Notes: generated from the sequence alone by a model not told the origin. A DNA stretch of 57,766 nt from Solirubrobacterales bacterium (GCA_035573435.1 DATMZR010000029.1:1-57766), one strand, 5' to 3'. Counted from the first letter of the stretch, positions 2,685-13,764 are shown. A program made the numbers and translations.

Positions 2685-2720
2685 CTACTCCCGCAACCCG
2701 GCGGCTTCGAGGGCTGTGAG
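2685..2720 (-). pseudogene. SnoaL gene tail remnant
   Basis: The twelve codons LTALEAAGLRE plus stop match the conserved tail of the array genes, with the same DNA core CTCGAAGCCGCCGGG. Nothing upstream resembles a SnoaL domain. Reading upstream in the same frame, the first stop reached is the TGA of the beta-propeller remnant (2751-2753). The tail thus sits 30 bases downstream of an unrelated gene, the same arrangement as at 6861 and 9147. Confidence 0.8.
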
Positions 2721-3066: not shown

Positions 3067-4323
3067 TTGCAGACGATCAGGCAGGGAAAGCCGGCTAGCG
3101 TGGGAATAGCAACGACCGACCGGAGGGCGGGTGTCGGAGACGCCCAGGGGGCCGATCTCGCGAGCCCCCGACGCGAGGAGTGGGTGACCGATGCCCGCCG
3201 CTTCGCCGAGCTGCGCGATCCCTGGAACCGGCTCGCCACAGACAACCTGTTTCTGACCTGGGACTGGCTGGACTGCTGGTGGCGGTCGTTCGGCATGGGG
3301 GCACGGATGCGGGTCCACGTGAGCTGGGACGGGCCCGAGCTCGCGGGAGGGATCGCCTTCGGCCTGCGGGGGCGCCACCTGGTCGCGATTGCCAATGCAG
3401 CGACGGATCTGTTCCGGCCCGTGGCGCGATCGGAGCCCGACCTCCACCCTGCTCTCCGACCGGTCTCCGAAGGACCCTGGTCTCGGATCACGCTTCGGGG
3501 CCTTCCAGGGGATGACCCCGCGACGCAACGACTCCGGGAGGTGCTGGGGTCTGACGGATGGTTGGTCGATGAGAAGTTTCGGGAACGGTGCCCGATCGTC
3601 AGCACGAAAGGCAAGTTCGAGGACTACTTACGCGGCTTAAGCGCCAAGACGCGGTCCAACGACCGGCGGGCGCGTCGGAGGCTGGAGCGCGAAGGGCGGG
3701 TCGAGCTCCGGGCCATCGAGCCCGTCGGACAGCTCGAGCCGGTGCTCGCAGAGAGCTTTGCGGTTGAGGCCGCGGGTTGGAAAGGGCGCTCGAACAAGGC
3801 CATCCTCTCCTCGGAGCGCCGAGCGCGGTTCTGGCGGGCCCTGTTCGAGCGTTTCCACCGACTCGGAGGCGTTCGATTCTCCGAGCTGCGACTGGACGGC
3901 ACGCTCATCGCCTTCAGCTTGGACGTGGTCCATGAGGGTCGCCTGTACGGTCTGAAGACGAGCTACGACGAGCGCTATGCCTTCCTCGGGCCGGGCAATG
4001 TCCTCCTCATGGAGATGATCGAGCGCGGCTTCAAAGGTGACCTGCAGGCCATCGAGATGCTCGGCCCCACGAGTCCTCGAAAGGAACGCTATGCAACCGA
4101 GGCCCGTGACACGGTGCAGTTGCGCGCCTATCGGCGCCGCCCTGGATCTCTGGCCAGGTACGGGGCGCGACGGTGGATGGTGCCCTGGCTGCGACCGATA
4201 TATGTGAGGCCGCGCAATGCACTCGACCGCGTGGGCGAGCGGGGTCTGCGGGGCCTGCGCGCAACGCAGGACGGTGGGCAATGCCCTCCCAACAGTGGGC
4301 CATGCCGACCGGCCCCCGAATGA
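3067..4323 (+). CDS. FemAB/CelD-like GNAT acyltransferase
   Basis: The product has 418 residues. The conserved core begins near residue 40 (RFAELRDPWNRLATDNLFLTWDWLDCWW) and continues with two GNAT-like halves; the second (~residues 190-350) has the acetyltransf_6/CelD pattern LRLDGTLIAFSLDVVHEGRLYGLKTSYDERY...GNVLLMEMIERG. Proteins of this family transfer acyl or aminoacyl groups during polysaccharide or peptidoglycan synthesis, probably in the cytoplasm. A clear paralog sits at 12607-13764, just outside the tRNA-Ser island. The frame begins at TTG 3067; GTG 3100 is an in-frame alternative and the homologous part starts later, so the start is uncertain. The last ~40 residues (GERGLRGLRATQDGGQ...) extend beyond the paralog. 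The stop is 15 bases before the tRNA at 4338. Confidence 0.8.
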   Translation: MQTIRQGKPASVGIATTDRRAGVGDAQGADLASPRREEWVTDARRFAELRDPWNRLATDNLFLTWDWLDCWWRSFGMGARMRVHVSWDGPELAGGIAFGLRGRHLVAIANAATDLFRPVARSEPDLHPALRPVSEGPWSRITLRGLPGDDPATQRLREVLGSDGWLVDEKFRERCPIVSTKGKFEDYLRGLSAKTRSNDRRARRRLEREGRVELRAIEPVGQLEPVLAESFAVEAAGWKGRSNKAILSSERRARFWRALFERFHRLGGVRFSELRLDGTLIAFSLDVVHEGRLYGLKTSYDERYAFLGPGNVLLMEMIERGFKGDLQAIEMLGPTSPRKERYATEARDTVQLRAYRRRPGSLARYGARRWMVPWLRPIYVRPRNALDRVGERGLRGLRATQDGGQCPPNSGPCRPAPE

Positions 4324-5657: not shown

Positions 5658-5889
5658 GGGTTTCTGCGGTCTCGACTACCTCTTGCGGATCCCGGACGCA
5701 TGCATCCTGCACTGCGGGTGCAGAAGGCGCCGGGGAACCGCCAGCTTACGCGGAGCCCTACTCGCCTGCTGATAGCTGAGGAGCTCCTCGCGGCCGCTGC
5801 CGCCTGAGGCCGCGACGGTCAGCACGGGGCCGACGTCTTGCGCGTAGAACGTGTGGCCTCGGGGCCTGCAAATCAAGTAGCAGAGCCAG

Positions 5890-5964
5890 ATCTGGCTCTA
5901 TCAGCGGAGGGGGAGGGATTCGAACCCTCGATGGACCAAAACGGCCCATAACGGTTTTCGAGAC
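5890..5964 (-). repeat. tRNA-Ser(CGA) 3' fragment, copy 2 (candidate attachment site)
   Basis: Aligned by eye with 11503-11577 (inside and just beyond the intact tRNA-Ser), 72 of 75 positions agree, including 15 bases outside the tRNA 3' end. It contains the anticodon loop, long variable arm, T-arm and 3' acceptor strand, but not the 5' half, so it cannot make a tRNA. It marks the boundary between the first island segment and the SnoaL array. Confidence 0.9.
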
Positions 5965-6054
5965 AGGCGGCGGCGCGGATTGATTCCGCTTGGATAAGCC
6001 ATTTGCACGCCGTCACGAGGAGCCGTGTGCCAATCGGAGGGCCAGTTCGCTCTC

Positions 6055-6452
6055 CTACTCCCGCAGCCCGGCGGCTTCGAGGGCGTCACCCGGTTCATGA
6101 AACCAGGCATACCGGGAAACCTTGCCGTCGCGGAGGGTCCACAAGGCCGACTCTCGCCCCTCCACTTCGAGGCCACTCCCTCGGCCCCGCGCGCGGTAGC
6201 TCAGCACCACCGCCACGTGATCCCCCAGGTCCTTGAACTGCTCCGGCTCCGCCTGCCAGGTCTCCCAGCCTTCGAAGAGTTTTTCAACGCCCTACTGAAC
6301 GCAGCGCGACCACGTCGGGTTCCCGGTTCCACCGCGCCAGCGGGATTGAGGTACTCGATCTCTGGGTCCATGAGCTCGACCGGTCCCGGGAACTCCTCTC
6401 GCCCCCAGGCGTCGTAGAAGCGCCGCACGATCTCCACGTTCTCCTGCGACAT
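6055..6452 (-). pseudogene. SnoaL/NTF2-like protein, single-base frameshift
   Basis: The first frame reads MSQENVEIVRRFYDAWGREE...GRAAFSRALK and then runs out of frame. The expected continuation, KLFEGWETWQAEPEQFKDLG through to DALEAAGLRE and stop, is in the next frame. The switch falls in a run of five A (near 6281-6285); one more A would restore a 132-residue protein, the family length. This is either a real one-base deletion or a homopolymer sequencing error. SnoaL-like proteins are ~130-residue alpha+beta cones acting as small hydrolases, isomerases or ligand binders. This is the last gene of the array, 90 bases from the tRNA-Ser fragment copy 2. Confidence 0.8.
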
Positions 6453-6455
6453 CGC

Positions 6456-6857
6456 CTACTCCGAAAGTCCGGCGGCTTCGAGGGCCTCCGCGCGGCCGGC
6501 AAAGCCTTGACCGTAGGTGAACTTCCCGTTTTGGATCGTCCACGTCTGCCAGAAGGTGAACTTCGCCTCTGCGCCGCTTTGCTTGCCACGGCCGCGAAGA
6601 GTCGACCCGACGACCACCGTGTCGCCAGCGTCGATCAACTCGTCGATCCCAGCTTGCGCATCGTCGAACTCGCTTCGCAGCCAGCCGATGAACTCCTTGT
6701 AGCCCTCGCGTCCATGAAAGACGCCGGTACGGTCGGGGATTGTCCCGGCGGCGGTGTAACGACAGTCGGGGGCAAAGTCCGACACCGCCCCATCAATGTC
6801 TCCCCGGTTGTAGGCCTCGTAGGCCCTACGCACCAGTTCCACGTTCCCCTCCGACAT
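6456..6857 (-). CDS. SnoaL/NTF2-like protein
   Basis: The product has 133 residues: an N-terminal helix MSEGNVELVRRAYEAYNRGD, the HGREGYKEFIGWL helix, a long antiparallel sheet (DTVVVGSTLRGRGKQSG, FTFWQTWTIQNGKFTYGQGF) and the array tail EALEAAGLSE. The TYW/HxGrxg arrangement is typical of SnoaL_2 proteins. The start is fixed by the conserved MS(Q/E)xNVE leader. The stop is followed after three bases by the next start, and the GGAG inside the last codons probably serves as that gene's Shine-Dalgarno. No catalytic residue can be assigned; ligand unknown. Confidence 0.9.
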   Translation of the reverse strand: MSEGNVELVRRAYEAYNRGDIDGAVSDFAPDCRYTAAGTIPDRTGVFHGREGYKEFIGWLRSEFDDAQAGIDELIDAGDTVVVGSTLRGRGKQSGAEAKFTFWQTWTIQNGKFTYGQGFAGRAEALEAAGLSE

Positions 6858-6860
6858 CGC

Positions 6861-6905
6861 TTACTCCGAAAGCCCAGCGGCTTCGAGGGTGTCGCCGTGG
6901 CGCAG
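6861..6905 (-). pseudogene. SnoaL gene tail remnant after the monooxygenase-like gene
   Basis: Directly downstream of the TAG of the 6906-7184 gene, and in the same frame, come LRHGDTLEAAGLSE and TAA. The DNA matches the conserved cassette tail, and its GGAG precedes the next start at 6857. Only the tail of a SnoaL gene is present. A single amber codon separates it from the monooxygenase-like product, so read-through would append the tail. Confidence 0.8.
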
Positions 6906-7184
6906 CTAGCGCCTGATGATGTTGTGGACCTCGAATACCTCCGGCTCGCCAGGCTCAATCCCGATATCGGACAGCACGGGCCTCAGTCGCTCGCCAAACG
7001 CTTCGAACTGCTCCCGCGAGTCCCAGATTTCGCTTACGCGAACGCCGCCGTCTACGAGGAAGGCGACGTGGTACTCCAGCCCCTGCGGTGGAAAGTCACC
7101 GGCCTCTTCCAGGTGACGGACAGTCTCGTCGTATTGCTCGGCCGGCGGCGTAGACGGGGGGGCGTAGCGGACAAGGATGCTCAT
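6906..7184 (-). CDS. ABM/EthD-like small monooxygenase-fold protein
   Basis: The product has 92 residues: MSILVRYAPP, then HLEEAGDFPPQGLEYHVAFL, VSEIWDSREQFEAFGERLRP and PGEPEVFEVHNIIRR. The strand-helix pattern with SEIWDS...F fits a dimeric ferredoxin-like alpha+beta barrel (antibiotic biosynthesis monooxygenase superfamily). Unlike the flanking genes it has its own strong ribosome site, AAGGAGG, 8 bases before ATG, and no MSQENVE leader. It is bracketed by a 14-codon vestigial SnoaL start (7218-7262) and a detached SnoaL tail (6861-6905), so it appears to have replaced the body of a SnoaL gene. Function is not established. Confidence 0.8.
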   Translation of the reverse strand: MSILVRYAPPSTPPAEQYDETVRHLEEAGDFPPQGLEYHVAFLVDGGVRVSEIWDSREQFEAFGERLRPVLSDIGIEPGEPEVFEVHNIIRR

Positions 7185-7217
7185 CAGTCGGTCCTCCTTA
7201 AGTTGGTCGCGCCGACC

Positions 7218-7262
7218 CTATTCGACAGGACGCTCCAGTCCGGCGATGTTCTCCTGCGACAT
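7218..7262 (-). pseudogene. SnoaL gene head remnant (14 codons)
   Basis: ATG TCG CAG GAG AAC opens a frame MSQENIAGLERPVE followed by TAG. The first five codons and the upstream GGAGTAGGCG junction are identical to the array consensus; the rest is unrelated. It lies 33 bases before the monooxygenase-like start and is presumably the left end of a cassette whose body was replaced. It may still be translated as a short leader peptide. Confidence 0.7.
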
Positions 7263-7265
7263 CGC

Positions 7266-7817
7266 CTACTCCCGCAGCCCGGCGGCTTCGAGGGCTTCGG
7301 CGCGATCGGAGAAGTCCCGCTGCCAGACCACCAGGCCGCGCCGCATTCTGAAGAGCTGAACGAGCGGGATGTCCACCGGGACGCCGCTGCCCGACCCGTG
7401 CCCCGTGTAACGAGTTGCGGCGAGAAGCTGGTCACCCAGGTCGATGGCCTCCAGTGGCTCCACACGGAAGTCCTCGAAGGAGTCGATCATCAATCGCCAG
7501 ACCTTTTCGTAGCCGTCGTGGCCGTGCAAAACCGCATCCATATCGAGAGGCAGCTGGTCACCGTTGGGGTAGTACTCGATCCCGGGATCGATGGCGAGGA
7601 ACAAAACCTCGAAGTCGCGTCGATTGACGGCGGCCGCTGCCCGCTCGCTAATCCGGGTGAGGATCAACCGCCGAAGCCGAGACCCGGGTGGCAGCCGCAT
7701 CCACGCATCGGCGACCAGCCGGTAAGCGGCGGGGAACCGGACGAAGAATCGTTCGTCAAGACTCCGGCGCTGGGCGCTTCTCTCGCCGGGAAGGTGAGAT
7801 GCGGTAGCGCACTCCAC
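7266..7817 (-). CDS. SnoaL/NTF2-like protein with N-terminal helical extension
   Basis: From GTG 7817 the product has 183 residues. Residues ~20-60 form an amphipathic helical stretch (RFPAAYRLVADAWMRLPPGS, RLRRLILTRISERAAAAVNR), then a SnoaL domain with DPGIEYYPNG, VLHGHDGYEKVWRLMIDSFE and FRMRRGLVVWQRDF, ending EALEAAGLRE. This longer subfamily is known beside ordinary SnoaL proteins. The start is uncertain: the frame stays open upstream into the neighbouring gene's tail, and a decayed leader with ATG TCG CCG GAG AAC at ~7840 lies in another frame, suggesting that the original head was frameshifted. Ligand unknown. Confidence 0.75.
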   Translation of the reverse strand: MECATASHLPGERSAQRRSLDERFFVRFPAAYRLVADAWMRLPPGSRLRRLILTRISERAAAAVNRRDFEVLFLAIDPGIEYYPNGDQLPLDMDAVLHGHDGYEKVWRLMIDSFEDFRVEPLEAIDLGDQLLAATRYTGHGSGSGVPVDIPLVQLFRMRRGLVVWQRDFSDRAEALEAAGLRE

Positions 7818-7824
7818 GCACGAT

Positions 7825-7858
7825 GTTCTCCGGCGACATTGCCCGCGCAGTATCTCGC
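7825..7858 (-). repeat. SnoaL leader/start element, degenerate copy
   Basis: On the minus strand this is GCGAGATACTGCGCGGGC, then AATGTCGCCGGAGAAC. Relative to the other copies it has two substitutions (one before ATG, one in codon 3). Its frame (MSPENIVRGVRYR...) ends soon after and does not match the SnoaL gene below, so it is a displaced or frameshifted head. It overlaps the tail of the 7858 gene. Confidence 0.75.
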
Positions 7859-8250
7859 TACTCCCGCAGCCCGGCGGCTTCGAGGGCTTGTTCCCGTTGC
7901 GGGAAGATTTGGATTTCAACAATCTCGCCGTCTCGCAGCGTGGTCACTTGCCACCAGCGACCTTCGACGACGCCTGGGCTTCCGCGTGGCCGCCCTCGTT
8001 GATGAAGCGCGATAACCACCTTGTCGCCCGCATCGGTGATCTCGGTCGCTTCCATCGTGAGGTCGTCGAAGGACTCCACCCATGCCGTCATCCAGTTGAT
8101 TGCCGCCCCGCCCCAGTAGGTACCCGCATCTGGCAACTCGGGGCTGGTTACCAGCTTGAAGTCGTCGCGGAGGGTCGCGAACGAGCTGAAGTCACCGTGG
8201 GCGAACTGCTCATAGAAGCCCCGCATGATCTCCACGTTCTCCTGCGACAT
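7858..8250 (-). CDS. SnoaL/NTF2-like protein
   Basis: The product has 130 residues, beginning MSQENVEIMRGFYEQFAHGD and ending EQALEAAGLRE. The middle shows the SnoaL pattern: PDAGTYWGGAAINWMTAWVE (entry helix), EITDAGDKVVIALHQRGRPRG and GRWWQVTTLRDGEIVEIQIF strands. It starts three bases after the stop of the upstream array gene, with GGAG of that gene's last codons as probable Shine-Dalgarno, so translation is likely coupled. There is no enzymatic signature I can name. Confidence 0.9.
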   Translation of the reverse strand: MSQENVEIMRGFYEQFAHGDFSSFATLRDDFKLVTSPELPDAGTYWGGAAINWMTAWVESFDDLTMEATEITDAGDKVVIALHQRGRPRGSPGVVEGRWWQVTTLRDGEIVEIQIFPQREQALEAAGLRE

Positions 8251-8253
8251 CGC

Positions 8254-8655
8254 CTACTCCGAAAGCCCGGCGGCTTCGAGGGCTTCGTTTCGGTCCCGAT
8301 AGCCGCCCTCGTACCGGACCACCTTGCCGTCGCGGAGCGTCCAGACGTTCAAGAGGTGCATGTTCACGTCGATCCCGCTACCGCGCCCCTTTCCGGCTAT
8401 ACGAACCGCGGTGACTACCCGGTCGCCCCCGTCGACGAACTCCTCGACCTGCAGGTCGAACGTCTCCCACATCTCGTCTATTTGATCGACGAAGCGCCGA
8501 AAGCCATCGAGGCCACGATGAACACCAGGGTTGAAGACGTTTCGCGATACGTCGAAGACGAGGTCGGGATCGACCACCTGGGCGAGATAGGCGAAGTCGC
8601 GGCTCCTAAAGAACTCAGAGCATCGACGCACGATCTCCACGTTCTCCTGCGACAT
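8254..8655 (-). CDS. SnoaL/NTF2-like protein
   Basis: The product has 133 residues: MSQENVEIVRRCSEFFRSRD head, HRGLDGFRRFVDQIDEMWET helix, VEEFVDGGDRVVTAVRIAGK and NMHLLNVWTLRDGKVVRYEG strands, and tail NEALEAAGLSE. It is a typical SnoaL-like length and order. Three-base gaps on both sides (GAG TAG GCG ATG) show tight coupling with its neighbours. Paralogs in the array keep the ends almost identical at DNA level while the centre differs strongly. Confidence 0.9.
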   Translation of the reverse strand: MSQENVEIVRRCSEFFRSRDFAYLAQVVDPDLVFDVSRNVFNPGVHRGLDGFRRFVDQIDEMWETFDLQVEEFVDGGDRVVTAVRIAGKGRGSGIDVNMHLLNVWTLRDGKVVRYEGGYRDRNEALEAAGLSE

Positions 8656-8658
8656 CGC

Positions 8659-9060
8659 CTACTCCAGGAGTCCGGCGGCTTCGAGGGCCTCGCTCCAGTT
8701 CCCGTACAACCTGACACACACGACTTTGCCGTCCTGCAAGGTGAAGACCTGCCCCAGGTGCCGCTCGACCTCGACCCCACTGAGCGTGCCACGGCCACGC
8801 TCTTGGGATAGGACAACCACCTCGTCGCCTGCCTGGGCGTAACGGGAAACTTCCAATTTGTACTCCGTCCACTTTTGGGTCCAGCTTTGGACCGCGTCAC
8901 GGAGTTCTTCGGTCCCCGTGTAGGTGGCGACGTCGGGGCCGAGGCTTGGCATCTCCACCCACTCAACGTCAGGGTCGCATCCCGCCAAAATGGTGTCCCA
9001 GTCATTCCGGGCCAAGGCTTCAACGCCGCGACGAACGATCTCGACGTTCTCCTGCGACAT
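8659..9060 (-). CDS. SnoaL/NTF2-like protein
   Basis: The product has 133 residues from the conserved MSQENVEIVRRGVEALARND. It continues DPDVEWVEMPSLGPDVATYT, TEELRDAVQSWTQKWTEYKL, AQAGDEVVVLSQERGRGTLS and LGQVFTLQDGKVVCVRLYGN, ending EALEAAGLLE. The frame is open 12 codons further upstream, but that part is the non-coding leader element, so I use ATG 9060. It is preceded by the leader type without an upstream gene tail, so it may be the first cistron of a sub-operon (8659 down to 6055). Confidence 0.88.
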   Translation of the reverse strand: MSQENVEIVRRGVEALARNDWDTILAGCDPDVEWVEMPSLGPDVATYTGTEELRDAVQSWTQKWTEYKLEVSRYAQAGDEVVVLSQERGRGTLSGVEVERHLGQVFTLQDGKVVCVRLYGNWSEALEAAGLLE

Positions 9061-9079
9061 CGCCCGCGCAGTATCTCGC
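9046..9079 (-). repeat. SnoaL leader/start element
   Basis: Consensus copy: GCGAGATACTGCGCGGGCG, then ATGTCGCAGGAGAAC. CTGCG and CGCAG could pair and place the ATG in the loop. Here it follows an unrelated ~65-base spacer rather than a gene tail. Confidence 0.85.
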
Positions 9080-9146
9080 AGCGGGAAGAGGGCCATACCG
9101 GGTATCCCCCACCAGTCTTGCGAGGTTGATTAGTCCAAAAAACCGC

Positions 9147-9194
9147 CTACTCCGAAAGTCCGGCGGCTTCGAGGACTTCGTCGCTACGGGGCAT
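9147..9194 (-). pseudogene. SnoaL gene tail remnant after the phosphoesterase gene
   Basis: The codons MPRSDEVLEAAGLSE and TAG keep the conserved cassette tail, 65 bases downstream of the metallophosphoesterase stop (9260) and out of its frame. No SnoaL body is present. An AAGGAGG lies ~20 bases before its ATG, so a 15-residue peptide could be made, but I regard it as a leftover cassette end. Confidence 0.75.
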
Positions 9195-9259
9195 CGACCC
9201 CTCGTGCGCCTCCTTGGACCGCGAAGGGCGGAACTGCGGGAGTCGCGCGGCGCTCGTCG

Positions 9260-10042
9260 CTAGTGGACCAGCTGGACGTGGGAGATCAGGTTGGCGTCGA
9301 GGACCGCGTGCAAGGCAAAGCCCGCGGGTCCGGCGACCCACTCGTCCTCCGCCGAGCTGAAGTTCAGCGGCGCCTGTACGTAAGTGCTCGGAACGGTCAG
9401 CACGGCACGGCCCGCGAGCTCGCCGGTCATCGTGCGGTGCACGTGACCGGCAACGAGCCGTCGCAGCTGCTGGTGGCGCTCCACCACTTCGCCGAGTGCT
9501 CGCCGATCGGCAGCAGGCAGGCCGACCTCGTCACACGCCGGTAGGCCAGTGACAAGCGGTGGATGGTGCATCGCGAGCAGGGTGGGCAGCTCTGGCGCCT
9601 TGGCCAGCTCGGCGTCAAGCCAGCCCAGCCGCTCGGCGTCAAGAGCACCAGGGTCCTCGCCGGGGCGCGTGGTGTCGAGCACGACGAGCCGCAGCGGGCC
9701 GAAGTCGACCGAGTACTGCACGGGGTCGCCGTCAGCGCCCGGCACGCCGAAGTGGCGATGGAGGGCGCGGCGGTCGTCAGTGTTGCCCGGCAGGACATAC
9801 AACGGCGCTTGCAGTGGGGCGAGCAGTTGGCGCACCTGCTCGTACTCGGCATCTGTGGCGTTGTCCGCGAGATCGCCGGAGACGAGCACCGCATCCGGCT
9901 GTTGGCGCATCGAGCGGACCGATTCGACCGCCGCCGCGAGCCCCGCCACGGGATCACCGTCGGCCCACTCCGCTCCGATGTGAGGATCGCTCAGTTGCGC
10001 GAGGAAAAACGGGCGGACGATCTCCACGTTCTCCTGCGACAT
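9260..10042 (-). CDS. Calcineurin-like metallophosphoesterase carrying a SnoaL head
   Basis: The product has 260 residues. Residues 14-260 are a class III cyclic-nucleotide-phosphodiesterase/CpdA-like fold. Visible ligands are Asp19 and His21 (LSDPHIG), Asp57 (SGDLAD), Asn87 (GNTDD in place of the common GNHD), AMHHPP and GHVHR. Such enzymes use two metals to cleave phosphodiesters. The first ten residues, MSQENVEIVR, are not part of this family: they are the exact head of the neighbouring SnoaL genes, fused in frame just before FFLAQLSDPHIG, where CpdA-type proteins normally begin. Leader and start are thus borrowed from the array, and a detached SnoaL tail follows at 9147. Substrate unknown. 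Confidence 0.9.
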   Translation of the reverse strand: MSQENVEIVRPFFLAQLSDPHIGAEWADGDPVAGLAAAVESVRSMRQQPDAVLVSGDLADNATDAEYEQVRQLLAPLQAPLYVLPGNTDDRRALHRHFGVPGADGDPVQYSVDFGPLRLVVLDTTRPGEDPGALDAERLGWLDAELAKAPELPTLLAMHHPPLVTGLPACDEVGLPAADRRALGEVVERHQQLRRLVAGHVHRTMTGELAGRAVLTVPSTYVQAPLNFSSAEDEWVAGPAGFALHAVLDANLISHVQLVH

Positions 10043-10061
10043 CGCCCGCGCAGTATCTCGC
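10028..10061 (-). repeat. SnoaL leader/start element
   Basis: Consensus copy, GCGAGATACTGCGCGGGCG before ATGTCGCAGGAGAAC. Its first base overlaps the stop codon of the frameshifted SnoaL gene above, and its ATG starts the metallophosphoesterase. Confidence 0.85.
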
Positions 10062-10454
10062 TACTCCCGCAGCCCGGCGCTTTGAGGGCTTCGGCCATCG
10101 ACTGGAAGACCGTATGGCGAACAGCCTTCCCGTTGCGGAGGGTCCAGACGTGGGCAGTGTGGGCGGTCGTCTCGACTCCGCTCTGCCTTCCGATGCCAAC
10201 GAGACGGACCGAAACCACCACGTCATCCCCAGCATCGACGAACTCTTCAGGCTCGACTCGCAGCGTTGCCCATTGTTGCCGCAAGACGGCCATCCCCTCT
10301 CGCACCCCGTCGTGGCCGTGCAAGACCGAGGGATCGAATTTCGGCGCGACCAGTCGTAGACGATCTCCGAGTCAAGGGCGCTGTAGTCAGGCTCGCCGGT
10401 TCGGTTGTAGTGCTCATAGCCCCGACGCACAACCTCCACCTTCTCCTGCGACAT
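10061..10454 (-). pseudogene. SnoaL/NTF2-like gene with two frameshifts
   Basis: The head MSQEKVEVVRRGYEHYNRTG...DSEIVYDWSR is followed by a one-base frame change near 10346. The body KFDPSVLHGHDGVREGMAVL...VRLVGIGRQSGVETTAHTAH, VWTLRNGKAVRH then lies in another frame. A second change occurs inside the tail (near 10078-10081), where GGCGCTTTGAG replaces the usual GGCGGCTTCGAG. The repaired tail would be EALKAAGLRE. The total length of 394 bases against 399-402 for intact relatives agrees with small deletions. It was probably inactive before or while its neighbour's head was acquired. Confidence 0.8.
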
Positions 10455-10457
10455 CGC

Positions 10458-10856
10458 CTACTCCGAAAGCCCCACGGCTTGCAGCGCCTGGGCGCGGTCT
10501 AGGTAATAGTCGGCCTCCACGATGAGGCCCTCCCGCAGGCGCTGAACGACGGCGAATGATTGGGTGTACGGAGCGTCCGCCCCCTGCCCCACCATGCTCG
10601 TGCAGGCGACGAAACGTCCATCGCCCACGTCGATCAGCTCGTCGAGGCGCACCTCGATCGGCCCGAGCAGACCGATCAGGCTCTGCATGCGAGCGAGCGC
10701 GGCGGCACGTCCTCGGTAGACACCCGCATTGGGCCAACCAGGTCCCTCGCGGTAGACCGCATCCTCAGCCCAGAACTGGCCGGTGAGTGCCTCAGGACCC
10801 GACTCGTTCCAGACCTCATAGGCGCGGCGGATGGTGTCGGCGTCCTCATGCGACAT
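10458..10856 (-). CDS. SnoaL/NTF2-like protein, divergent ends
   Basis: The product has 132 residues, starting MSHEDADTIRRAYEVWNESG and ending RAQALQAVGLSE. The SnoaL order is kept (VYRGRAAALARMQSLIGLLG helix, ELIDVGDGRFVACTSMVGQG, SFAVVQRLREGLIVEADYYL). Its head and tail are the least conserved in the array (CATGCGACATC context is retained, but MSHEDAD replaces MSQENVE), so it may not have exchanged ends recently. Three-base gaps separate it from both neighbours. Confidence 0.9.
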   Translation of the reverse strand: MSHEDADTIRRAYEVWNESGPEALTGQFWAEDAVYREGPGWPNAGVYRGRAAALARMQSLIGLLGPIEVRLDELIDVGDGRFVACTSMVGQGADAPYTQSFAVVQRLREGLIVEADYYLDRAQALQAVGLSE

Positions 10857-10859
10857 CGC

Positions 10860-11282
10860 CTACTCCGAAAGCCCGGCGGCTTCGAGGGCTTCATCAGGGG
10901 TGGCGTACACCTGCCCCCGCTGGATAAGCCCGCCCTCGATTGTGTAGACGATGCCGTAATACATTTCGACCCACGAGTCGCTGCCGCGCGGTTTGCCCCG
11001 CTGGTGGAACGTCGCCGCGACTCGGTTCCCGCCTGCATCGAGAATCTTCTTGACCTCATAGCTGAAGTCGTCATACGCCTCCATCCAGGCGGCGCGGAAT
11101 GCGAGGAACTCGTCCATGCCGCGAAACTCACGTTGCCCCGGCCAGCCCGAGTAGGTCCCCATGTCCCAAGTCGCACCCGGCGCGAGGAACTCGGACAGTC
11201 GCTGAACATCGGCGAGCCCCTCATCCACTTCTATCCACGCGTTGAGCGAATCCCGTACCACCTCGACGTTCTCCTGCGACAT
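10860..11282 (-). CDS. SnoaL/NTF2-like protein, first gene of the array
   Basis: The product has 140 residues from ATG 11282: MSQENVEVVRDSLNAWIEVD, then REFRGMDEFLAFRAAWMEAY, NRVAATFHQRGKPRGSDSWV, YGIVYTIEGGLIQRGQVY and EALEAAGLSE. The frame stays open 55 codons upstream, but those codons cover the leader element and low-complexity spacer, so I reject the longer form. It heads the SnoaL array and is 235 bases from the intact tRNA-Ser. The promoter, if any, should lie in 11302-11500; I see no clear -10. Confidence 0.88.
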   Translation of the reverse strand: MSQENVEVVRDSLNAWIEVDEGLADVQRLSEFLAPGATWDMGTYSGWPGQREFRGMDEFLAFRAAWMEAYDDFSYEVKKILDAGGNRVAATFHQRGKPRGSDSWVEMYYGIVYTIEGGLIQRGQVYATPDEALEAAGLSE

Positions 11283-11301
11283 CGCCCGCGCAGTATCTCG
11301 C
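11268..11301 (-). repeat. SnoaL leader/start element
   Basis: Consensus copy GCGAGATACTGCGCGGGCG before ATGTCGCAGGAGAAC, at the upstream end of the array. Beyond 11301 the similarity to the other copies stops. Confidence 0.85.
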
Positions 11302-11502
11302 GCCAGGGGTGAGGATTCGAGATCTTGACCAGGCGTGCCCGACGACCGCCCGGCTAGCCCTCCGGTCAACCGCCCCTGAGTGCCAGTCGAGTGCCAGTCC
11401 CGCACCTTCTCAGGCGGCTGGTAGAGGAATCGCTTCCAGCGATTCACGGAAACCCGGATGCGGACCCGCTGATGGCGTCCGCTTGCCCCATCAACAAGCC
11501 GA

Positions 11503-11577
11503 ATCTGGCTCTATAAGCGGAGGGGGAGGGATTCGAACCCTCGATGGACCGAAATGGCCCATAACGGTTTTCGAGAC
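11503..11577 (-). repeat. Reference copy of the tRNA-Ser 3' repeat (inside the intact tRNA)
   Basis: This is the third copy of the 75-base repeat. It covers the 3' two thirds of the tRNA-Ser(CGA) plus 15 downstream bases (ATCTGGCTCTATAAG on the plus strand). It differs from copy 2 at three positions and from copy 1 mainly in the variable arm. All three copies have the same orientation. Confidence 0.9.
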
Positions 11578-11607
11578 CGCCGCATTCAACCACTCTGCCA
11601 CCCCTCC
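11518..11607 (-). tRNA. tRNA-Ser(CGA)
   Basis: A 90-base class II tRNA. The acceptor is GGAGGGG paired with CCCCTCC and discriminator G; the D-arm is TGGCAGAGTGGTTGAATGC, the anticodon stem-loop CGGT-CTCGAAA-ACCG with anticodon CGA (codon UCG), followed by a long variable arm and T-loop GGGTTCGAATCCC. CCA is not encoded. Its 3' part recurs at 2504 and 5890, which marks it as the likely integration target that bounds the island. Confidence 0.95.
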
Positions 11608-12606: not shown

Positions 12607-13764
12607 TCAAAGAGAGAGCAACCCGCGAACCCGCCCGTAAGCCGGACGCACCCGTGGCAGCAGCAGCCGTCGTCCCCCATACCGAGCCAGGCTTGCGGGA
12701 CGGCGACGGTAGGCCCGCAGGATGCTCGTCTCCCGGGTCTCGGTTGCGTAGCGCTCCTTGAAGGGGCCGGTCGGACCGAGAAGCTCGTGTGCCGCGATCC
12801 CGTCTTCGCAGGAACGCTTGATCATCTCGAGGTACAACAGGTGTCCGGGGGAGAAGGAGGAGTAGCGCTCGTCATAGCTCGTCTTCAGCAGGTAGAGGCG
12901 CCCTTCATGAAGCACATCGAGGCTCATGGCGATGAGCAGGCCATCGAGGCGCAGCCCGGAGAATCGCAGCTTTCCGAGCCGGTGATAGCGCGCGAACACG
13001 GCGTCCCAGAACCGCCTCCTCGGCTCGTCCGAGAGGACGGCTTTTCCGGAGCGGCCCTTCCATCCGGCCGCCTCCAAGGCAAAGCTCTCGGCGAGCACCG
13101 GCCCGAGCTCGCGCACGGGCTCGACCGCCGTGAGTTCGATGCGTCCCTCAGCCGCCAAGCGTTGCCTGCTCCGTCCGAGCTGCTTCCGCGCGTTCCGGCT
13201 CAGGCTTCGGAGGTAGTCGTCGAACGACCCGCTCGTGTCGACGATCGGGCAGATCTCCTCGACGGCCCGGTGTACGAACCACCCCTGTGACCGCAACATC
13301 TCTTCAACGCACTCCGTCGCCGGATCGCCGCTGGGAAGCTTTCGGAGCCTGATCCGGGACCAGGGCCCCGCGGTGATCGGTTCGAGCAGCGCGTCGAGGC
13401 CACGCTGCGATCGCATCACGGGCCGAAACAGATCCGTCTGCCCACCCGCCATCCCGAAAAGGAGGCCATTTCGAAGGCCCAGGGCGAACCCTCCGGCGAG
13501 CTCGGGCCCCTCCCAGCTGACGTGGACTCGCATCTCCGCGCCTTCCCCGAAGGCCCGCCACCAGCAGTCCAGCCAATCCCAACTCAGAAACATGCTGTCC
13601 CCGGCAAGTCTGTTCCAGGGCTCGCGCAACTCGGAGAATCGGTCCGGATCGATAACCAGCTCCTGGCGAACGGGCCGCGGACTCGCGCTGGCGCCCCGCG
13701 TGCGGGCTCGTTGCAGAGCAGTCGCGAGCTCCCCGGACGGGCGCTTTCGGTCCACCGCGGGCAT
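12607..13764 (-). CDS. FemAB/CelD-like GNAT acyltransferase (paralog)
   Basis: The product has 385 residues and is strongly similar over its whole length to the island copy at 3067. Shared blocks include ELREPWNRLAGDSMFLSWDW, GPELAGGFALGL, ESFALEAAGWKGRSGKAVLS, GLRLDGLLIAMSLDVLHEGR and KERYATETRET. Family members act in polysaccharide or cell-envelope acylation in the cytoplasm. The flippase gene directly upstream on the same strand (13863) supports an exopolysaccharide role, which is an inference. ATG 13764 gives a ~35-residue variable N-terminus before the conserved block. Confidence 0.85.
   Translation of the reverse strand: MPAVDRKRPSGELATALQRARTRGASASPRPVRQELVIDPDRFSELREPWNRLAGDSMFLSWDWLDCWWRAFGEGAEMRVHVSWEGPELAGGFALGLRNGLLFGMAGGQTDLFRPVMRSQRGLDALLEPITAGPWSRIRLRKLPSGDPATECVEEMLRSQGWFVHRAVEEICPIVDTSGSFDDYLRSLSRNARKQLGRSRQRLAAEGRIELTAVEPVRELGPVLAESFALEAAGWKGRSGKAVLSDEPRRRFWDAVFARYHRLGKLRFSGLRLDGLLIAMSLDVLHEGRLYLLKTSYDERYSSFSPGHLLYLEMIKRSCEDGIAAHELLGPTGPFKERYATETRETSILRAYRRRPASLARYGGRRLLLPRVRPAYGRVRGLLSL

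Follow-up and report, generated by a model that had tools for sequence, protein, structure and literature searches.

How can genes that stand in a row keep almost identical ends around divergent middles, and even around genes of other families? The question was raised by an array of SnoaL genes in a stretch of 57,766 nt from a Solirubrobacterales bacterium (GCA_035573435.1 DATMZR010000029.1:1-57766), the whole of which is called the window here. The array was found on the minus strand, from 11299 down to 6055, and was found to contain eight SnoaL genes and one longer relative (7266-7922), in agreement with a preliminary description of the locus; the SnoaL genes at 10061-10454 and 6055-6452 are frameshifted. 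The host is a small soil or groundwater actinobacterium with about 80 single-gene cassettes, mostly SnoaL-like and some unrelated.

Three recurrent DNA blocks were found: P (GCGAGATACTGCGCGGGCG), the head block H (ATGTCGCAGGAGAAC) and the tail block T (CTCGAAGCCGCCGGGCT-NNN-GGAGTAG). Anatomy showed, at a first level, that the arrays are the cargo of small islands at the 3' ends of tRNA genes and of a few protein genes, and that the islands are flanked by direct repeats of the target 3' end and are often stacked in tandem. At a second level, anatomy and comparison showed that the cargo consists of single-gene cassettes with T at the 3' end and, in the SnoaL cassettes, H or P-H at the 5' end, and that SnoaL genes and unrelated genes fill the same slots. 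The explanation proposed here, to which an even chance is given, is a two-level mobile structure in which single-gene cassettes are inserted at T, inside tRNA islands devoid of an integrase.

Recurrent blocks in the host genome and beyond

The host genome (2.58 Mb, 97% complete) was found to contain 80 heads (at most 2 mismatches) and 64 tails (at most 3 mismatches) against none for the reversed-pattern controls, which excludes chance. They were distributed over about 26 arrays, many with a single cassette, and in the window the head and tail blocks were repeated in register along the array. The near-identity of the ends at the DNA level was confirmed. Eight tails abutted P directly and many tails abutted H. 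The P block was located immediately upstream of the ATG in the first gene of an array and in some later genes, and the sequence preceding P was unrelated in nearly all cases. Of 399 genomes of the class, 18 contained P followed by a head and 8 contained the tail|head joint; the controls gave zero. In a scan of named genomes, exact T was found only in Solirubrobacterales and other actinobacterial or bacterial metagenome-assembled genomes (MAGs); judging by their titles, these came from soil, groundwater and Lake Baikal. Neither T nor P was present in IMG/VR or matched among phage records, and a viral origin was rejected on these grounds.

The P block and the ends were uniform inside one genome and partly different between genomes. 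The motif GATACT, nine bases before the ATG, hardly varied among the P variants of three genomes; P is probably a leaderless promoter that carries the -10 element for the first gene. The GGAG of T is probably the ribosome site for the next gene, and with these two signals the inserted genes would be expressed. Related leader sequences (CGCTTTGCATNGAAAGCGACAC type) were also seen upstream of P in three otherwise unrelated arrays (L035 -18007, L037 4488 and L039 5015), and a common gene start (GTGACCTTCGATGAGGCCCTCGCCGC type) was seen directly after T in three islands (L033 8936, L035 13460 and L038 6345), truncated in two of them.

Conservation of the ends as DNA

Codon use was compared in 59 intact SnoaL genes. 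The Ser2 codon was TCG in 95% of the heads versus 26% in the bodies. At the other end, the Glu-8 codon was GAA in 96% versus 20% in the bodies (p 2e-32), the Gly-5 codon was GGG in 83% versus 26%, and the Ser-3 codon was TCG in 100%. Most interior residues of comparable conservation were found to have ordinary codon usage. The bodies were under purifying selection, with a ratio of nonsynonymous to synonymous substitution rates (dN/dS) of 0.2-0.7; the divergence of the ends did not track that of the bodies, and the ends were alike even where the bodies had diverged synonymously.

About 14 T copies in the host genome were non-coding, that is, not in frame with any SnoaL gene, and were located after unrelated genes. 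Their conservation started abruptly at CTC and was equal in strength to that of the coding copies, with upstream information near background. Further non-coding T copies were found in the MAGs G361 and G041 and in three other MAGs. The frozen end codons and the non-coding copies together exclude protein constraint alone. The preliminary description had asked for synonymous divergence to be compared between ends and centres, and for foreign bodies at the same ends in other genomes; the ends proved to be conserved far beyond protein constraint, and the foreign bodies were present.

Movement of the units and location of the joint

The swapping of bodies between common ends, earlier no more than suggested, was supported by 22 pairs of related SnoaL bodies, some from one genome and some from two, that are 70-85% identical in nucleotides and were found in unrelated contexts. 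The flanking sequence was unshared in 21 of the 22, the exception being a 51-bp upstream match, and in the inspected alignments the homology ended at P/H and at T. In these genomes, ordinary neighbouring genes with identities of about 76-82% stayed collinear. SnoaL gene 8, the last of the array, was found beside tRNA-Ser in the window and beside tRNA-Gly in G361.

The NNN triplet of T was mostly GCG at array ends and before P, and mostly TTC, CTC or GTC before a head. T positions 20-22 were linked to the class of the downstream sequence (p 3e-5, 2e-9 and 1e-7), whereas positions 0-19 had no strong association with it, and in most related body pairs with differing contexts NNN differed to match the downstream context. 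Since NNN follows the downstream sequence, the joint was placed left of NNN, within the left 17-20 bp of T (CTCGAAGCCGCCGGGCT).

Unrelated genes in the cassette slots

Two unrelated genes were found within the array of the window, as previously described: a metallophosphoesterase gene (9260-10042; Pfam PF00149) and a small monooxygenase-like open reading frame (ORF; 6906-7184) that had no Pfam hit. Each was followed by a non-coding T copy (9147-9176 and 6861-6890, respectively). Among the products of genes adjoining non-coding T copies were a metallophosphoesterase, a CAP protein, a delta-60 repeat protein, secreted proteins and a TolB/PD40 protein. The search for non-SnoaL genes at these ends, which had been proposed earlier, returned unrelated genes between P and/or T in the host genome, among them the TolB/PD40 gene, which lay reversed between P and T. 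A further fusion joined P and a head to a ClC channel.

The metallophosphoesterase aligned with its free-standing relatives from residue 11 onward, and its first ten residues were those of the head. The fusion coincides exactly with the native start of the gene.

Islands at tRNA genes

The array of the window was found next to an intact tRNA-Ser(CGA) gene (11517-11607, minus strand; ARAGORN, Rfam RF00005), the attachment gene of the island. The 3' half of this tRNA was duplicated twice on the same strand. The first copy (5884-5953, in a match of 86 nt at 92% over 5884-5969), of which 62 nt were identical to tRNA-Ser of G361, forms the distal end of the SnoaL island, and the second (about 2500-2578; 48 nt at 92%, and 60 nt at 85% against tRNA-Ser of G361) forms the distal end of a second, tandem island. 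The SnoaL array therefore fills one island of a tandem pair. A lone non-coding T block (2685-2714, minus strand) was found in the second island, just inside its distal repeat. The P block, the twofold tRNA-Ser duplication bounding the islands and this lone T are additions to the preliminary description.

Elsewhere in the host genome, arrays were bounded by 3' duplications of tRNA-Gly, Cys, Arg(CCG) and two Val besides tRNA-Ser, and in G041 by those of tRNA-Arg, His and Cys; the tRNAs checked away from arrays had no 3' duplication. One tRNA-Val island of only about 1 kb contained P, two SnoaL genes and T. Duplicated 3' ends of protein genes also terminated islands, among them that of xerD in G041 and that of a protein gene in G361. 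An island of G041 was found to separate tRNA-Arg and tRNA-His, which are 73 bp apart in the host genome. In the scan for flanking repeats, random-pair controls gave 35 hits in 149 at the same threshold, and because of this high rate only the long tRNA and gene-end repeats were used. An Rfam scan brought only tRNAs to the cut-offs.

A dedicated tyrosine integrase was sought in the host genome and rejected, the only tyrosine recombinases found there being XerC and XerD. Integrases or their remnants, degraded or intact, were found near arrays in relatives. In G361, a phage- or satellite-like element (L077 6041-13400, C113) contained an integrase, a helicase/primase-like protein, a major head protein and two P-SnoaL units. 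The sole large serine recombinase found in the host genome (531 aa; L170 1396-2991, C21) was located about 4.4 kb from a single-cassette array; it was rejected as the cassette enzyme, since its relatives do not track the presence of cassettes.

Some further features were seen around the islands. Short direct repeats (ACTGGCACTCG, GTGCCCATTGG and CGTGGCAACGG), similar to integrase arm sites, adjoined arrays at 11390-11410 in the window, at about 13045 in L033 and in the right flank of L052. The left flank of a minus-strand array in L035 (strand coordinate about 17700) contained a tRNA-Gly reduced to its 5' half, and a complete tRNA-Gly whose 3' end is duplicated was found on the separate contig L033, which suggests rearrangement through islands. 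Paralogous proteins of 385-418 aa with similar sequences were encoded at 3067-4323 and 12607-13764 of the window, each adjoining a tRNA (Trp and Ser-GGA, respectively).

Organisation of the array in the window

On the minus strand, the array was found to open with an exact P block (11283-11299), a possible leaderless promoter with GATACT 9 nt before the ATG, followed by SnoaL gene 1 (10860-11282), a P-H-body-T unit with an 81% relative in a different context in G041, then by SnoaL gene 2 (10458-10856) and the frameshifted SnoaL gene 3 (10061-10454). The tail of gene 3 was directly followed by the P block (10043-10059) of the metallophosphoesterase, whose residues 1-10 (MSQENVEIVR) come from the head block. 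After the non-coding T of that gene, another P block (9061-9077) was followed by SnoaL gene 4 (8659-9060), SnoaL gene 5 (8254-8655) and SnoaL gene 6 (7858-8250), which had an LRE-type tail and then a P block with 1 mismatch (7840-7856). Gene 5 matched the SnoaL-like Pfam models PF12680 (1.2e-14) and PF07366 (7.7e-10), which places it among SnoaL/NTF2-like proteins.

The longer relative matched PF12680 at 1.5e-10, and the head block at 7839 was out of its frame. It was followed by a head remnant (7243-7262) before the monooxygenase-like ORF, a relative of which was found in G361 outside any cassette. After the non-coding T of this ORF, SnoaL gene 7 (6456-6857) and the frameshifted SnoaL gene 8 (6055-6452) were found; the latter had a terminal GCG-type tail and an 83% relative in another island in G361. 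An isolated P block was present on the plus strand (359-375), where the start codon after P reads AGG.

Proposed mechanism and alternatives

Under insertion at T, a cassette would enter or leave through recombination within the left 17-20 bp of the block. The target SnoaL gene would keep its 3' end, now supplied by the incomer, and a T copy would be left at the far side, as with gene-3'-end attachment sites or integron cassettes. The recombining enzyme would probably act in trans or have been lost. The mechanism may be homologous or site-specific; the observations tend to favour a defined point of crossover within T. A stronger form of the same explanation was considered tentatively and is rather doubtful: that the arrays belong to a gene-cassette capture system unrelated to integrons, with a short recombination site in the coding end of SnoaL genes. 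It is equally doubtful that such a system moves single genes between tRNA islands and species by an undescribed recombinase, in an actinobacterial order free of integrons.

Several observations weigh against insertion at T. No enzyme was linked to T, and no single cassette was seen as a circular intermediate or in a precise before/after pair. Most of the T positions 0-19 were nearly invariant, so the power to map the joint there is low. The heads of the foreign genes broke at varying points, 7-36 nt after the ATG, unlike the sharp T, and the P blocks that open islands had no T before them, so T recombination alone is insufficient for these. Every genome with arrays is a draft MAG, and in several cases an array runs off the end of its contig.

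The main alternative, a lesser but serious possibility, is homologous recombination or gene conversion among the roughly 80 repeats: diverged bodies cannot pair, and exchange within the ends keeps the ends alike. The foreign genes, with the same modest likelihood, would have entered by rare illegitimate joints and then been carried along. Most of the facts are explained in this way, including the uniformity of P and the ends within a genome with partial differences between genomes, the independence of end similarity from body divergence, and the linkage of NNN to the downstream context; the host genome also has no dedicated tyrosine recombinase, and its sole large serine recombinase does not track the cassettes. 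However, the homology blocks are only about 20-50 bp long, and the uniform left edge of non-coding T is left over: separate copies start at nearly the same nucleotide, which is unexpected from random illegitimate joints.

It is improbable that a transposon-like element, copied by a transposase not recognised here, has its ends in the P..T units. P and terminal T are sharply bounded on their outer sides, where the flanks are unrelated, as such ends would be, but neither terminal inverted repeats nor a target duplication could be seen, and the inverted similarity between P and T was loose and judged by eye only. Eight tails directly on P and many on H also speak against it, and the islands are already accounted for by the tRNA duplications.

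Still less credit is given to tandem duplication and divergence of a SnoaL family, with the ends held by the needs of the protein, the promoter and the ribosome site. The head-to-tail order, the purifying selection on the bodies and the resemblance of P and GGAG to expression signals agree with it. As a full account it is refuted by codons frozen at the ends only and by non-coding T copies, and unrelated and reversed genes in the slots and non-syntenic relatives are further points against it. An artefact of short-read metagenome assembly, with contigs joined at 30-50 bp repeats, is just as improbable despite the use of MAGs and the contigs ending inside arrays, given that the same structures were found in independent MAGs from different sites, that unit boundaries agree between genomes and that tRNA duplications enclose whole arrays.

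If insertion of cassettes at T is true, gene-cassette arrays arose at least once outside integrons, and a recombination site doubles as protein-coding sequence and expression signal. The roughly 80 genes with near-identical ends in a streamlined 2.6-Mb genome would be accounted for, and the metallophosphoesterase, with its junction to the head precisely at the native start, would offer a tractable case of an ordinary gene becoming a cassette. The arrays also raise the question of the role of dozens of NTF2-like enzymes in these bacteria.

Comparison with known systems

A literature search on SnoaL with cassettes and on Solirubrobacterales islands returned nothing. The islands themselves are of the known tRNA-targeted kind, which comprises islands resembling cis-mobilisable elements (CIME) and integrative and mobilisable elements (IME), tycheposons and phage satellites: the 3' half of the tRNA is duplicated at the far end, the islands are in tandem with variable cargo, and integrase remnants were found in relatives of the host genome. 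They differ from this kind in that the host genome has no integrase of its own, in that some are no longer than about 1 kb and contain only one or two genes, and in that one set of P/H/T cassette ends recurs within islands at many different tRNAs.

Insertion by tyrosine integrases at the 3' ends of protein genes is similar in that the incomer restores the gene end and a non-coding copy is found at the far side; here, by contrast, the cassettes bring the repeated target T with them, so that arrays would grow. We know of no integrase for T. Phage morons are similar as stand-alone genes with their own promoter carried as cargo, and the two P-SnoaL units in the phage-like element of G361 are of this form; the SnoaL cassettes differ in being mostly outside recognisable phage elements and in having no match in IMG/VR or phage records.

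The array shares with integrons its single-gene units with T located 3' of each on one strand, although one gene inside a cassette is reversed, and T may be a recombination site. It is not an integron, because neither IntI nor an attC fold was found. The integron-integrase models gave 153 bits for XerD and 131 bits for XerC against a cut-off of 265, and T and the T|H joint folded no better than shuffles (z -0.1 to -0.6). An attC-like hairpin in T (AGCCC/GGGCT), noticed by eye, was rejected, as its folds equalled those of shuffles and its left arm varied in the non-coding copies. The attC sites vary in sequence and keep their fold, and no complete integron was recorded for Actinobacteria in a published survey (PMC9024848).

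Integrase-less integron cassette arrays (CALINs) are mobilised in trans (PMC11389934). The system of the window differs from them in its T, which is nearly invariant in sequence, folds no better than shuffles and encodes the C-terminus of SnoaL. It is similar to them in its head-to-tail single-gene units, in a putatively recombining block at each 3' end, in unrelated genes within the same slots and in the lack of an integrase nearby, and the logic of the array resembles that of CALINs and of hitchhiking elements (PMC11389934).

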